64,000 bases of DNA from the NCBI RefSeq assembly GCF_013364235.1, contig NZ_CP054919.1, forward strand, positions 287,276 through 351,275. The letters are read 5' to 3'. Every line of letters begins with the position of its first letter. Positions within the stretch are counted from its first letter, which is position 1. The notes beneath the pieces are model-generated. The model was given only the letters and a program-made list of their open reading frames with translations, did no database searches and was not told where the DNA came from. The DNA is from Kitasatospora sp. NA04385 (GTDB lineage: Bacteria > Actinomycetota > Actinomycetes > Streptomycetales > Streptomycetaceae). Of this stretch, positions 9,081 to 34,980 are shown piece after piece. Position numbers and translations under genes: made by a program.

Positions 9081-9809
9081 TTGTCGGACGACTGGATCAG
9101 GGTGCCGGTCGGCACGGACGCCGCGCGCTGGACCACGAGGAGCAGGTGCCGCCGGGTCCTGCTCGTCGTGCACAACGTGACGGCGGCGACCCGGCTGCTG
9201 GACGTGGTCGGCCTGTTCCGCGACGACCTGCGCGTCCAGCTGCTGGCCACCTGCCCGGGCAGCTCGCCCTTCCGCTCCGGCCTGCCCGAACTCCTCGCCG
9301 CGCTGGGCCTCCCGGTCGTGCCCTGGGAACAGGCCCGCGGCCTCGACCCCGAGCTGGTGGTCTCCGCCAGCTTCGGCGGCCAACTCCACTGCTTCAAGGG
9401 GAAGTTGGCGGTCCTCTCGCACGGTGTCGGCTACAATAAGAAGCTGGCAACGCCGGGAGCCGGGAGCCGGGAGCCGGGAGCCGGGAGCCGGGAGCCGGGA
9501 GCCGGGAGCCGGGAGCCGGGAGCCGGGAGCCGGGAGCCGGGAGCCGGGAGCCGGGAGCCGGGGCGGTTCCGGTGTTCGGGCTGTCGCCGGAGTGGCTGCT
9601 CGACGAGGGCGGGGAGCCGGTCGCCGATGCGCTGGTGCTGTCGCACCCCGATCAGCTCGACCGGCTCGCCGCGGCGTGCCCGGAGGCCGCGCACACGGCG
9701 GTGCTGGGCGGCGACCCGTGCTTCGACCGGATCCTGGCGGCGCTCCCCCGCCGGGACGCGTTCCGCCGGGCGTTCGGGGTGCGGTCCGGCCAGCGGCTGC
9801 TGGTCCTGA
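9081..9809 (+). CDS. 5' part of a glycosyltransferase-like gene, out of frame after a 7-bp repeat
   Basis: This frame encodes the start of a protein continued in another frame at 9572. TTG 9081 is chosen for its GGAGG about 7 bp upstream; an ATG at 9018 is an alternative without a ribosome-binding site. It reads RRVLLVVHNVTAATRLLDVV and ends its plausible part at LAVLSHGVGYNKK before entering the tandem repeat at 9452, where it becomes Pro/Gly/Arg repeats and then shadow sequence up to 9809. As present, the gene makes a truncated product. Losing two or gaining one repeat copy would restore the frame. Confidence 0.6.
   Translation: MSDDWIRVPVGTDAARWTTRSRCRRVLLVVHNVTAATRLLDVVGLFRDDLRVQLLATCPGSSPFRSGLPELLAALGLPVVPWEQARGLDPELVVSASFGGQLHCFKGKLAVLSHGVGYNKKLATPGAGSREPGAGSREPGAGSREPGAGSREPGAGSREPGRFRCSGCRRSGCSTRAGSRSPMRWCCRTPISSTGSPRRARRPRTRRCWAATRASTGSWRRSPAGTRSAGRSGCGPASGCWS
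9452..9562 (+). repeat. 7-bp tandem repeat (GCCGGGA)15 inside a coding region
   Basis: Fifteen perfect copies of GCCGGGA run from 9452 to 9556, plus a six-base partial copy. Because 7 is not a multiple of 3, each change in copy number moves the downstream reading frame. The repeat sits between two parts of one gene that are in different frames. Confidence 0.95.
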
Positions 9810-10852
9810 ACTCGACCTGGAACCCGACCTCGCTGTTCGGTGACGGCGGTCCGGACGACGTGCTGCCACTGCTGCTCTCCCGGCTGCCGGAGCTGCCGCT
9901 GGACGAGTACCGGGTCGCGGTGGTGCTGCACCCCAACGTGTGGCACGGCCACGGCCCGGGGCAGGTCCGGCTGTGGCTGGACGGGGCCCGCCGGGCGGGG
10001 GTGGCGCTGGTCGATCCGGTGGCCCACTGGCGGCAGGCCCTGATCGCCGCGGACGCCGTGGTGGGCGACTTCGGGTCGGTGAGCTACTACGCGGCGGCGA
10101 TCGGCACGCCGGTGGTGCTGGCGGCGACCGGGCCGTCCGTGATCGACGACGGGTCGCAGGTCGCGGCGTTCGTCCGGGCGGCGCCGAAGCTGGACCCGTA
10201 CGCGGCGCTCGGCCCGCAGCTGGAGGGGGTGATCGCCGCCCGTGAAGTGCCGTCCGGCCCCGCCGAGTTGACGTCCTCCGATCCCGGCGGGTCGGCGGGC
10301 CTGCTGCGGTCGCTGTTCTACCGGCTGCTCGGCCTGCCCGAGCCGGCCGGGCCCGCGCTGCTGGACGGACTGCCGCTGCCCGCGCACCAGCCGGTCGTGG
10401 TGACGGCCCCGGTCCGGGTGCTGACCCGGACCGGGGCGGACGGGGCGGTGGAGGTGCGGCGTTTCGCGGCGGCCCGCTACGAGCCCGCGGGGGCGGGCGA
10501 GGCCCACCTGGTGGCACCCGAGGACACCCTGGACCCCGGCGCCCTGGCGCTCGCGGACGTGATCGTCCGGCACGGCGCCGCCGCCGATCCCCGGCTCGGC
10601 CCGCCGCTGCTCTGGGCGGAGCAGACGCTGTCCCGGTACCGCTCGTGCACGCTGGCGGTGCAGGTGACCGGCCCGGCCACCTGCACCGTCCGCCACCGCT
10701 CGGGCGCCGCACTGGAGTTGGCGGGCGCCGACGACGGGATCGACCCGGCTGCGGCGGCCTCCGCGCTGCTGGCCGCCGGGCCGGTGCCGGGGGTGCTGAC
10801 GGTCCGCTCCGGCGGCGCGGTTCACCGGGTGACGGTCACTCCGGCCGGTTGA
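9572..10852 (+). CDS. 3' part of the glycosyltransferase-like gene
   Basis: Open from GTG 9572 to TGA 10852, 426 aa. It opens VFGLSPEWLLDEGGEPVAD and has GT-B-like features of CDP-glycerol glycerophosphotransferase-type proteins: a nucleotide-domain opening (RLLVLNSTWNPTSL), a conserved HPNVWHGHG segment, and AADAVVGDFGSVSYYAAAIGTPV, where family members hold the donor nucleotide. The donor and acceptor are unknown; a surface polymer role is inferred. GTG 9572 could be an internal restart but has no good ribosome-binding site. Its end overlaps the convergent STAND gene by 17 bp. Confidence 0.7.
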   Translation: MFGLSPEWLLDEGGEPVADALVLSHPDQLDRLAAACPEAAHTAVLGGDPCFDRILAALPRRDAFRRAFGVRSGQRLLVLNSTWNPTSLFGDGGPDDVLPLLLSRLPELPLDEYRVAVVLHPNVWHGHGPGQVRLWLDGARRAGVALVDPVAHWRQALIAADAVVGDFGSVSYYAAAIGTPVVLAATGPSVIDDGSQVAAFVRAAPKLDPYAALGPQLEGVIAAREVPSGPAELTSSDPGGSAGLLRSLFYRLLGLPEPAGPALLDGLPLPAHQPVVVTAPVRVLTRTGADGAVEVRRFAAARYEPAGAGEAHLVAPEDTLDPGALALADVIVRHGAAADPRLGPPLLWAEQTLSRYRSCTLAVQVTGPATCTVRHRSGAALELAGADDGIDPAAAASALLAAGPVPGVLTVRSGGAVHRVTVTPAG

Positions 10853-13270: not shown

Positions 13271-13302
13271 GCGTCGCCGCGATGATGGCCCGTCAGTTCA
13301 GC

Positions 13303-13460
13303 TGTACGCCAGGCGGTGGGGGAAGTCCGGTCGAATTCCGGCGCTGTCCCGCAACGGTAGGCCCATCCGCGCAGGTGGTGGGCGAGCCCGAATGCCCGTC
13401 GCCGGGTCTTCCGATACCTTCCACCCGTCGCGGACTGCGGGTCGGGGCTCCGGTGCCGCG
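13303..13460 (+). promoter_or_regulatory. Cobalamin riboswitch
   Basis: The leader has the conserved parts of the adenosylcobalamin aptamer in order: GGTGGGGGAAGTCCGGT, then GAATTCCGG, the core GCTGTCCCGCAACGGTA, and the B12 box GCGAGCCCGAATGCCCGTC around 13382-13400. A GC-rich hairpin after the B12 box (about 13425-13445) could be the expression platform. It precedes, and should repress in the presence of B12, the two secreted proteins downstream. Confidence 0.93.
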
Positions 13461-13516
13461 CTCGTGCGCGCGGCGCTTCGGGCGTCCGGCCCCGCGGGTC
13501 CGGAGAGGCTGACCCG

Positions 13517-14559
13517 ATGTCACTGCGCGCTCGCGCCGCCGTCCTGCTCGCCACGGCGGCCCTCGCCACCGCCCTGCTGCCCGCGGCCACCGCTGCGGCG
13601 GCGCCACCCGTCACCGTGCGCCCGGACGCGGCGGCCGCGGGCTGGCTGGCCGGTCAACTGGTGGGCGGCGACCACCTGGAGAGCAGTTTCGGCGGGGTCT
13701 CCTACCCCGACCAGGGGCTGACCGTCGACGCGGTGCTGGCGTTCGCCGCGGCCAAGGTCTCCGACGACGCGGCGGCCCGGGCCACCGCCTGGCTCGCCCA
13801 GCCGGCCAACCTGGCCGGGTACGCGGGTGACGGGGTCGGCGAGTCGTACGCCGGGGCCACCGCCAAGCTGGCGTTCGCCGCGCAGGTGCGCGGCGCGGAC
13901 CCGGCCTCGTTCGGCGGGGTCGACCTGGTGGCGCGGCTGCGGGCCCTGCAGCAGCCGTCCGGGCGGTTCTCGGACGTCTCGCAGTGGGGCGACTACAGCA
14001 ACAGCCTGGGCCAGTCGTACGCGCTGCTCGCGCTGGCCCGCACCCCCGGCGGGGCGCCGGCGACGGCGGTCGGCTACCTGGCGGGGGCGCAGTGCGCGGA
14101 CGGCGGGTTCCCGGTCGCCTTCGCGCAGCCGGTCTGCACCTCCGACCCGGACGCGACGGCGCTGGCCGCGCAGGCGCTGGCGGCGACCGGCCGGGCGCCG
14201 CGGCGCGGGCCGGGCTGTCCTGGCTGGTGGCGCACCAGGGCGCGGACGGTTCGCTGGCGGCGGCCGGGGGGAGCGCGGGCAACGCGAACTCCACCGGGCT
14301 GGCCGCGCAGGCGCTGCTGACCGGGGGCCGTCCGGTGGCGGGGTTGCAGGCCCGGGCCTTCGTCCGCTCGCTCCAGGCGGGCTGCGGCGCACCGGCCGCC
14401 GACCGGGGCGCGGTCGCCTACGACGCGACCGGGCTGGACCCGGCCACCGCGCCCCGGGCCACCGCGCAGGCCGTCCTCGGGCTGTCGGGCGCACCGCTGG
14501 CGACCCTGAGCGCGCACGGCGCCCGCCCCGCCGCACCGGCCCCGGCCTGCGCGCACTGA
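13517..14559 (+). pseudogene. Secreted alpha/alpha-barrel protein, transcobalamin-like, with one frameshift
   Basis: ATG 13517 starts a signal peptide ending in TAAAAP. The protein then has repeated terpene-cyclase/prenyltransferase-like helices with QSYALLALAR, CADGGFP and YLAGAQ motifs, the fold of the cobalamin-binding alpha domain of transcobalamin and intrinsic factor. At about 14190-14210, in GCGCCGCGGCGCGGG, coding moves from frame 2 to frame 1 and continues as LSWLVAHQGADGSLAAAGG to a TGA at 14559. One missing base explains it: either a real mutation or a sequencing error. Position directly behind a B12 riboswitch supports a cobalamin-capture role. Intact length would be about 347 aa. 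Confidence 0.8.
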
Positions 14560-14622
14560 CCCCGGACCGCTGCGGCCACTCCCCCACGCACGTTCCCGTT
14601 CCGTCCGCCGAGGAGGCGTCCG

Positions 14623-15090
14623 ATGTTCCGTACCACCGCGTTCCGCCGTCCGCTCGCCCCGCTGGCCGCCGCCGCGGCCCTGACCGCCGCGCTGCTGGGC
14701 GCGTCGACCGCGGCCGCGCCGCCCGCGCACGCGGCGGCGTGCAGCGGGACGACCGGTGTCACCGTCGTGGTGGACTTCACCGCGCTGGGCGGCACGATCC
14801 AGACCGGGTGCGCGCTCGGCGACCCGTCCAGCGGGCTGGCCGCGCTGACCGGCGCCGGGTTCTCCTACGCCTTCCACCCGCGGTTCCCGGGCTTCGTCTG
14901 CCAGATCAACGTGCTGCCGAACCCGTGCAACGGCGCGCCCGCGTCGGCGTACTGGTCGTACTGGCACGCCTCGCACGGCGGGGCGTGGAGCTACAGCAGC
15001 CTGGGCGCGGGCAGCTACGACCCGGCCCCGGGCGAGGTCGAAGGCTGGGCCTTCGGCGCGGGCTCCCAGCCGGGCATCACCGCCCCCTGA
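14623..15090 (+). CDS. Secreted DUF4430-like small protein, putative cobalamin-binding partner
   Basis: 155 aa. ATG 14623 has GAGGAGG 8 bp upstream. A signal peptide ends at AHAAA (residue 38-40), and a compact Cys/aromatic-rich domain follows (TGVTVVVDFTALGG, CQINVLPNPC, WSYWHASHGGAWSYSS). The ending resembles the beta domain (DUF4430) of transcobalamin, whose other half is the alpha barrel encoded just upstream. The pair could be a two-chain extracellular B12-binding protein under the same riboswitch. The substrate is inferred from context only. Confidence 0.75.
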   Translation: MFRTTAFRRPLAPLAAAAALTAALLGASTAAAPPAHAAACSGTTGVTVVVDFTALGGTIQTGCALGDPSSGLAALTGAGFSYAFHPRFPGFVCQINVLPNPCNGAPASAYWSYWHASHGGAWSYSSLGAGSYDPAPGEVEGWAFGAGSQPGITAP

Positions 15091-16666: not shown

Positions 16667-17254
16667 TCAGTCCCGCTGGGCTTCGCGTGAGGCCGGTTGG
16701 CTGGACCTGCGGGACTGGCATCGGGTGATGCACCTGGTCATCAGGGTGGTCGCGGCCCAGATGATCAGCGACTCGGAGTGCTGGATCAGGCGTTCGCAGT
16801 CCCTGGCGTGCCGGCGGGCGTGCATCACCCAGGCGATCGACCTCTCGACGACCCAGCGGCGGGGCAGGACGACGAACCCCCACGCGTCCTTCGGCCGGCT
16901 GACGATCTTGACCGTGAGGTTCAGGTACTTCTCTGCCCGGGCCACGAGTTGTCCGGCGTAGGCGGAGTCGGCCCAGACGATGGTGATCTCGGGGTGCATC
17001 GGCCGGAGCCGGAAGAGGACTTCCTTGGCGGCGTCGCGGTCGGTGATGTCGGCCGGGGTGACCATGACGAAGAAGGGCAGGCCCTTGGTGTCCACGACAC
17101 ACCGGATCGCGTCCACGATCTCCCGTCGCGGGTGCCTCTCCGGCCGCCCGCCGGCCGGGTTCTCACAGGTTGGCTTCGGCAGTGGCGGTTCGATGAAGGC
17201 CCACTCGTCGTCCCGGGTGTCCGACGGGTGGCAACGACGGCGCGCCACGTTCAC
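16667..17254 (-). pseudogene. IS5-family transposase with an internal in-frame deletion
   Basis: 195 aa where about 270 are expected. The N-terminus (RRRCHPSDTRDDEWAFIEP, DUF4096-type) runs to IVDAIRCVVDT and then jumps directly to KGLPFFVMVTPADITDRDAA, the region of the catalytic core. Family members normally have about 75 residues in between, containing the first catalytic Asp. Both sides of the missing segment normally carry a VVDT-coding sequence, so recombination between short repeats explains the loss. The remaining DDE parts (WADSAYAG, RRWVVERS) are present. It cannot be active. Confidence 0.85.
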
Positions 17255-34279: not shown

Positions 34280-34980
34280 GGGCGCAGGCCCCCCAGCCGC
34301 TGCAGCACGTCGCAGGACGGCGTGATCCGCTGGTCCGAGACGATTTTGCCGTCCTGCAGGCGCACCACCCGGTCGCCGTTGGCGGCGACCTCCGCGTCGT
34401 GCGTGGCGATCAGCATCGTCATCCCGTACCGCTCGCGCAGCGACATCAGCAGGTCGATGACCTCCCGTCCGATGACGCTGTCCAGGTTGCCCGTGGGCTC
34501 GTCCGCCAGAAGCAGACCCGGTCGGTTGATCAACGCGCGTGCGACGGCGACCCGTTGCTGCTGACCGCCCGACAACTGCGAAGGCAGGGCGTCGGCCCGC
34601 TGGTCGAGGCCGACGGCTTCGAGCAGTTCCATACCGCGTGCACGCCGGTCGAAGTCCACTCTGCGCGGCAGGACGGGGGCGAGTACGTTGTCCAGTGCGG
34701 TCAGCGCGGGCAGCAGGTGGAAGCGCTGGAAGACGAAGCCGATGCGCCGCCGGTGACGGTCCAGGTCCCGGCGCGCGAGTTCCGCACCGTCGATCTCGAC
34801 GTGTCCCTCGTCGGGCTGGTCCATGCCACCTATGACATGCAGGACGGTGGATTTACCGGCGCCGGACGGCCCGGTCAACATCACCACCTCGCCGGCCGCG
34901 ACCTCCAAGTCCACCCCGTCCAGAGCGGTCAGCCCGGGATACCGACGACTCACCCCGCGTAAAGCCACCCTCACAGCCAT
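34276..34980 (-). CDS. ABC transporter ATP-binding protein (MacB/LolD type)
   Basis: 234 aa from ATG 34980. Walker A GPSGAGKST, Q-loop GFVFQRFHLLPALT, signature LSGGQQQRVAVARAL, Walker B LLLADEPTGNLDS and H-loop ATHDAEVA are all present. It is the cytoplasmic motor of the FtsX permease encoded next. The operon is read away from the PadR gene, with an operator-like palindrome between them. Confidence 0.96.
   Translation of the reverse strand: MAVRVALRGVSRRYPGLTALDGVDLEVAAGEVVMLTGPSGAGKSTVLHVIGGMDQPDEGHVEIDGAELARRDLDRHRRRIGFVFQRFHLLPALTALDNVLAPVLPRRVDFDRRARGMELLEAVGLDQRADALPSQLSGGQQQRVAVARALINRPGLLLADEPTGNLDSVIGREVIDLLMSLRERYGMTMLIATHDAEVAANGDRVVRLQDGKIVSDQRITPSCDVLQRLGGLRP

Follow-up and report, generated by a model that had tools for sequence, protein, structure and literature searches.

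A cobalamin riboswitch and a putative two-chain, transcobalamin-like corrinoid trap in Kitasatospora sp. NA04385

Introduction

Animal transcobalamin, intrinsic factor and haptocorrin are secreted, corrinoid-capturing proteins that combine an alpha/alpha toroid with a beta-grasp domain carrying a hairpin after its helix. Bacteroides possesses a lipoprotein named BtuG, which has a beta-propeller fold. Surface lipoproteins of this type, from an organism and an envelope unlike those considered here, also capture B12 outside the membrane (PMC6143338). ECF-CbrT of Lactobacillus is a tested B12 importer, and the accessible sections of its description mention neither a toroid nor a beta-grasp partner (PMC5997447).

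A bacterial counterpart of the animal carriers was proposed by Burroughs et al. in 2007 (PMC1796856). According to the available portion of that paper, proteins composed of toroids and SLBB domains are predicted B12 scavengers acting with CbiO/CbiQ. They are characterized by a secreted beta-grasp domain, toroids on either side of it, wall anchors and CbiQ/CbiO operons; they occur in low-GC Gram-positive bacteria and planctomycetes, to a lesser extent in euryarchaea, and their hosts are usually devoid of key B12 enzymes. The word "riboswitch" appears 0 times in the main text of this source. Other relevant reports, each available in part, describe SCO2321 as a hypothetical protein with a signal sequence (PMC9237094), note short DUF4430 proteins in fish (PMC4350170), and treat B12 transport and riboswitch regulons, the proteins of the type studied here going unmentioned in the accessible pages of the latter (PMC2667541, PMC3766115). 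A search by title and beginning of abstract, with most subscription papers outside its range, returned no prior report on actinobacterial pairs of such proteins.

Here we describe a locus of Kitasatospora sp. NA04385 in which a cobalamin riboswitch is followed by two genes, A and B, whose products are predicted to adopt the toroid and the beta-grasp fold, respectively. As in the animal carriers, both folds are represented and secretion is predicted, as is the corrinoid capture known for the animal proteins; unlike them, the system is bacterial, divided between two genes and predicted to be riboswitch-controlled. The organism belongs to the Actinomycetota and its genome contains CbiC, which sets it apart from the SLBB clade as presented in the accessible text of PMC1796856, and so does the presence of split soluble chains together with anchored paralogs. 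The idea of toroid plus beta-grasp proteins in B12 uptake has been known since 2007; what is new is a split, riboswitch-controlled, actinobacterial form, comprising soluble and anchored sets and unrecognised by Pfam.

Results

Organization of the locus

The DNA analysed (the window) is a stretch of 64,000 nucleotides, C1:287276-351275 of an 8.4 Mb single-contig genome. The riboswitch (13297-13417), gene A (13517-14559) and gene B (14623-15090) follow one another in this order:

13297-13417, + strand: cobalamin riboswitch aptamer RF00174 (Rfam 38.4 bits against a gathering cut-off of 31.5, E 3.4e-6)
13320-13358, + strand: conserved core of the riboswitch (pattern scan)
13517-14214, + strand: gene A, first part; start of a putative secreted alpha/alpha toroid with a signal-peptide-like N terminus
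14176-14559, + strand: gene A, second part, in a different reading frame (from translations and orthologs)
14623-15090, + strand: gene B; putative secreted beta-grasp protein of 155 aa, like the transcobalamin beta domain

The presence of a B12 riboswitch ahead of two genes had been proposed in an earlier analysis limited to the letters of the DNA (the sequence-only reading), and the RF00174 match, the sole one above gathering in the whole window, bears this out. The leader from the riboswitch to the start codon folds no more stably than its shuffled versions (z 0.67), and we therefore make no claim on the action of the riboswitch upon A. When the window was searched by tblastn with ECF queries, neither CbiQ nor an S component was detected; the sole match, at 34330-34968, was to a general ABC ATPase. 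No tRNA was predicted in the window by ARAGORN. A separate observation concerns positions 9424-9600, where a short tandem repeat coding for REPGAGS units seemingly interrupts a gene, whose frame is back at 9572-10852 (judged by eye).

Gene B encodes a predicted beta-grasp protein related in fold to B12 carriers

Crude hydropathy analysis of the B protein indicated a hydrophobic, signal-peptide-like N-terminal stretch and no C-terminal anchor; the GC3 of the gene equals 0.97. When B of the window was aligned with 55 homologs, the invariant residues included the motif YWSYWH. The AlphaFold model (pLDDT 81.8, pTM 0.72) is poor for residues 1-40 and exceeds 90 in most later blocks. Its elements (E45-51, E59-65, H71-77, E82-85, E88-95, E111-117 and E138-144) follow a beta-grasp-like strand order with a hairpin after the helix, a feature given in the accessible text of Burroughs et al. 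as a mark of the transcobalamin-like clade (PMC1796856).

The first seven PDB matches returned by Foldseek for this model were transcobalamin, at E values of 0.04-0.4, none of the PDB matches reaching E <= 0.001. A second comparison, which re-ranked Foldseek's own candidates with a tool whose own note states that models without a clear match typically give Z of 7 to 8, placed the beta domains of B12 carriers first (Z 9.0-9.8 overall): transcobalamin (Z 9.8, rmsd 3.1, 94 aligned residues), intrinsic factor (Z 9.7, rmsd 3.0, 98 aligned) and haptocorrin (Z 9.5, rmsd 3.2, 93 aligned). A Ruminococcus gnavus protein (3u7z) also scored Z 9.5, and the next row after these only 6.5. The comparison with transcobalamin suggested in the sequence-only reading thus has the animal B12 carriers as first-ranked structures for the B model; B is 15-22% identical to them over the aligned fold.

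The same reading had called B a secreted DUF4430-like protein, which holds for the fold and the signal-like N terminus but not for Pfam. No Pfam match at E <= 1 was obtained in window B, and none of relevance in the 56 aligned B proteins; PF14478 (DUF4430) matched nothing in the own genome and 0 of the 56 B proteins at E <= 0.1. A comparison of B with a profile of 12 DUF4430 proteins by hhalign was weak (probability 29.5%, E 5.7e-4), against 0.1% and E 0.69 in a single control in which A was aligned with the same profile. In a PDB sequence search with the B profile two matches were retrieved (best E 0.34) and rejected as unrelated. The NCBIfam family SCO2322_fam matches window B at E 4.7e-7.

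Gene A belongs to the alpha/alpha-barrel fold class

A signal-peptide-like hydrophobic stretch is also present at the N terminus of A (crude hydropathy). The fold of A, which is frame-shifted in the window, was predicted from the intact ortholog L009, whose model (pLDDT 92.2, pTM 0.87) is a mostly helical alpha/alpha barrel. Its best PDB matches were drimenyl diphosphate synthase and squalene-hopene cyclases (Z 24-25), followed by sugar-active enzymes (Z 21-23), with Z of 20.9-25.4 across the best 50 entries, composed of terpene cyclases and sugar enzymes. Both the terpene cyclases and these sugar enzymes are of the alpha/alpha-barrel type. The structure prediction called for by the sequence-only reading has, for the toroid part, yielded the expected barrel, with terpene cyclases as its nearest solved folds. 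Because the L009 model and its structural matches are of the alpha/alpha-barrel type, the predicted fold class of A agrees with that of the transcobalamin toroid, which does not imply specific kinship beyond the fold class. None of the animal B12 carriers appears among the best 50 structural entries, a lower rank being possible.

A PDB sequence search with the A profile retrieved squalene-hopene cyclases (E 1.6e-16) and complement-type proteins. The prenyltransferase toroid family PF00432 matched 31 of 41 A sequences at E <= 0.1, and PF01122, the animal cobalamin-binding family, 2 of the 41 at the same threshold (best E 0.042); for P0002, PF01122 gave E 0.17 and 11.2 bits (cut-off 25). The motif DxDD is the catalytic motif of class II terpene cyclases. 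It is absent from 67 of 70 A proteins and present in 3, and the first half of window A contains DPDA as its sole DxDD-like motif. SCO2321_fam matches the first part of window A at E 1.9e-21. The matches of A and B to these two NCBIfam families, whose only names are locus tags, fall far short of the curated cut-offs (300 for SCO2321_fam and 85 for SCO2322_fam).

The reading frame of A is interrupted

The description of A as a secreted alpha/alpha-barrel gene stands as regards the toroid-type match and the signal-like N terminus, but not as regards a single open frame, which changes near 14,200. The ATG frame extends over 13517-14320, of which relatives are matched only up to about 14,200; the match ends at "...QALAATGR" and unrelated residues follow. 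The change lies near 14,190-14,220, the gene being a net one base short versus its orthologs. By tblastn, the first part is 72-77% and the second part 63-66% identical to the same eight nearest complete relatives. Among the best 80 of 221 loci, the two halves share one frame in all 56 relatives that have both of them upstream of the main B.

The second half of A has kept its coding composition, as have the first half and all of B. The pN/pS of window A against eight orthologs amounts to 0.42 in the first half and 0.59 in the second, compared with 0.31 and 0.45 among the orthologs themselves (28 pairs each), i.e. it exceeds the ortholog level by a similar factor in both halves. Because coding composition is kept and the pN/pS rise is similar in both halves, the frame change is, judged from the sequence, a recent event or a sequence error. 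The window copy of A may be broken.

Related loci in other actinobacteria

The related loci considered are the best 80 of 221 confirmed, all actinobacterial going by taxon names. A pattern scan for the riboswitch core (two mismatches allowed) yielded 132 occurrences in the 1,364,286 bases of these best 80 loci, and none in one shuffled copy of each locus, used as a control. Of the 71 testable loci among the best 80, 62 have the motif no more than 600 nt upstream of their first gene, where uniform placement would give about 2. The nine counted as misses include L011, L018, L023 and L068, in which the motif is upstream of an A gene or fused frame that the script had not joined. Rfam scanning of 7 loci confirmed a cobalamin-class riboswitch in 6 of them (five RF00174, one AdoCbl-II) and gave nothing above gathering in L077. 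The AdoCbl-II riboswitch (RF01689) was found in Lentzea cavernae (L013, 8646-8717), ahead of the pair, instead of RF00174.

A is located directly 5' of B, with a median gap of 26 nt, in 49 of the 74 loci (again among the best 80 of 221) with a complete B; a crude prediction of anchors makes 29 of these 49 pairs soluble in both members and assigns an anchor to one or both members of the other 20. The sequence-only reading had advised a search for a nearby ECF transporter in other genomes, and such genes are indeed frequent. In the best 80 of 221 loci a CbiQ-like gene occurs in 72, a CbiO-like gene in 68 and an S-component-like gene in 64; all three are present, anywhere in the fetched stretch, in 64 of the 80. 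The operon trait of the SLBB clade is therefore shared by most of these loci, while in the own genome it is found about 80 kb away, outside the window. The 16 loci of the best 80 with at least one of the three genes missing are mostly short or end near the genes. ECF genes were absent from L012 and L022 despite 10 kb on both sides, and from the 10 kb downstream in L004 and L040. In Micromonospora (L026, annotated by Pfam and NCBIfam), the riboswitch is followed by two consecutive A-B sets and then by CbiQ (PF02361), a double CbiO and an S component (PF12822). Because it recurs in many actinobacteria, the arrangement of riboswitch, A and B is, as judged from these sequences, more than a chance association.

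A different arrangement was observed in six Salinispora loci (L042, L045, L048, L051, L053 and L060). In these, a soluble B has a riboswitch motif to itself and is not preceded by any A. Farther along come another such motif, an A whose end resembles an anchor, and one more B. A soluble B not preceded by a soluble A is a point against a strict A/B pair.

In 9 of the best 80 of 221 loci (L002, L003, L006, L008, L010, L059, L068, L069 and L072), A-like and B-like domains are encoded in one open frame. Such frames support a joint function of A and B; the independent fusion events are fewer than nine, because five of these loci are from close Kitasatospora-type relatives. On a wider scale, 296 Actinomycetota genomes were sampled, of which 42 matched the B profile at E <= 1e-5, in some cases over the C-terminal 45 residues only; PF14478 had matches in 26 of 149.

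A second system in the same genome

With 150 of 788 candidates scored, at least 9 RF00174 matches in the own genome exceed the gathering cut-off. One of them, at C1:380659, opens a second system about 80 kb downstream of the window pair (C1:380659-388460; L090 14659-18784 plus L091 988-3460), in which it is followed by a B-A-A frame, a second B-like gene, CbiQ, a double CbiO and an ECF S component. Two genes in the window and a single-chain B-A-A frame elsewhere are thus found in the same genome. The B-A-A frame, which encodes 982 aa when read from its first ATG, has an LAFTG wall-sorting-like end and a hydrophobic C terminus, and the second B-like protein also has a hydrophobic C terminus (all by eye). 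The S component matches PF12822 and has no sequence resemblance to solved S components, which distinguishes it from ECF-CbrT.

Downstream of a divergent riboswitch at C1:380349 is a chain of at most 537 aa (L090 12744-14447, - strand) that looks secreted and whose first ATG overlaps the riboswitch. A toroid-type match comes first in this chain and a further domain second (judged by eye), which perhaps corresponds to the domain order of the animal proteins. No Pfam match was obtained for the second domain, and a PDB sequence search with this toroid protein gave nothing.

In L002, L003, L006, L008 and L010 the soluble pair forms one continuous block with the divergent chain and the B-A-A gene. 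The window is homologous to these five relatives up to about 15,094, just past B, and homology is restored about 76 kb further on, at about 12,740 of L090 (C1:378738). A DDE_Tnp_1 transposase gene lies downstream of B (16670-17254). Comparison of the two sides of the split revealed no clear flanking repeat, the matches being of just 14-22 bases with E 0.055 or worse. A close B (at least 75% identity) is present in 10 of 37 genomes of the same genus, including the own genome, in which 79 kb separate window B from the second B-like gene; in the other nine, the second B-like gene is within 4 kb in six, the two are on different contigs in two, and there is no second match in one.

The genome also encodes CbiC (E 3.6e-73) and has a riboswitch before metE; corrinoid is therefore probably both made and scavenged.

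Discussion

We consider it likely that A and B form a soluble two-chain corrinoid trap of the transcobalamin type, controlled by the riboswitch and feeding an ECF importer. The predicted carrier-like fold of B, the barrel of A, the ECF genes and the natural single frames all speak for the extracellular B12-capture system that the sequence-only reading had put forward. When cellular cobalamin is low, the riboswitch would permit the production of A and B, going by the family to which it belongs, and the two proteins would leave the cell as separate chains. The toroid of A and the beta-grasp domain of B would then close around a corrinoid, as suggested by their folds and by the natural A-B and B-A frames. 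From the loaded pair the ligand would move on to wall-anchored A/B paralogs and finally to the ECF transporter, whose genes are close by in most relatives and lie about 80 kb off in the own genome. The first and last of these steps are inferred from known family behaviour, the middle ones from folds and fusions. The coexistence of a soluble carrier and anchored copies suggests a relay, in which a diffusible two-chain corrinoid carrier, comparable to a haemophore, would be handed to wall-anchored paralogs with the same two folds that feed the ECF transporter, carrier and receptor being copies of each other. We regard such a relay as rather doubtful, and it is just as conceivable that the soluble chains are retained in the cell wall.

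The most serious rival concerns the window copy itself, which might be a dying remnant, parted from its ECF operon and deprived of the A frame, with only B or nothing at work. We rate this somewhat below an even chance, and it is compatible with the corrinoid-trap reading of the family. The frame change in A points in this direction, as do the distance of 79 kb to the second B-like gene (versus at most 4 kb in six of nine other same-genus genomes with a close B) and the end of homology to the five relatives after B, with a transposase gene downstream. On the other hand, coding composition is preserved in the whole of B as well as in the two halves of A, the pN/pS rise is similar in both halves (0.42 versus 0.31; 0.59 versus 0.45), the riboswitch is intact, and a one-base sequence error explains the frame change as well.

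The nature of the ligand leaves room for an improbable variant, in which the pair delivers cobinamide, another cobamide or a corrinoid breakdown product, rather than complete cobalamin, to the same ECF transporter. The riboswitch reports the end product and not the imported ligand, CbiC is present in the genome, so that precursor salvage would make sense, and CbrT, according to the accessible part of its description, also imports cobinamide (PMC5997447). Very little credence can be given to the import of cobalt by the ECF system, with A and B binding a cobalt chelate. CbiQ and CbiO are indeed names from the cobalt-transport family, and cobalt transporters, too, occur under cobalamin riboswitches (PMC3766115, in its available portion), but PF12822, the family matched by the S component, is of the general ECF S kind, the scanned operon proteins of L026 and the own genome include none that matches CbiM, a large two-domain trap seems unneeded for a cobalt ion, and B resembles corrinoid-binding domains. 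Equally remote from the evidence is the view that A is a terpene-cyclase-like or glycosidase-like enzyme, B an unrelated secreted protein, and the riboswitch a regulator of another B12-dependent process. It has on its side the best solved matches of A, i.e. squalene-hopene cyclases and drimenyl diphosphate synthase, then sugar enzymes; however, DxDD is absent from 67 of the 70 A proteins, the N terminus of A is signal-like, and, in the best 80 of 221 loci, A and a B-like domain are encoded by a single open frame in 9 and CbiQ, CbiO and S are nearby in 64. We judge this view highly improbable.

Pfam is blind to B, and an actinobacterial branch of the transcobalamin type is therefore visible in the searched libraries only under locus tags and toroid-type matches. 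If the reading of A and B as a two-chain corrinoid trap is right, these genes would be candidates for a role in B12 uptake in Kitasatospora, Micromonospora, Lentzea, Salinispora and others, and the folds of the animal carriers would also exist as two free chains. Natural split, fused and anchored forms would then be at hand for testing the cooperation of the two domains and the origin of the animal protein.
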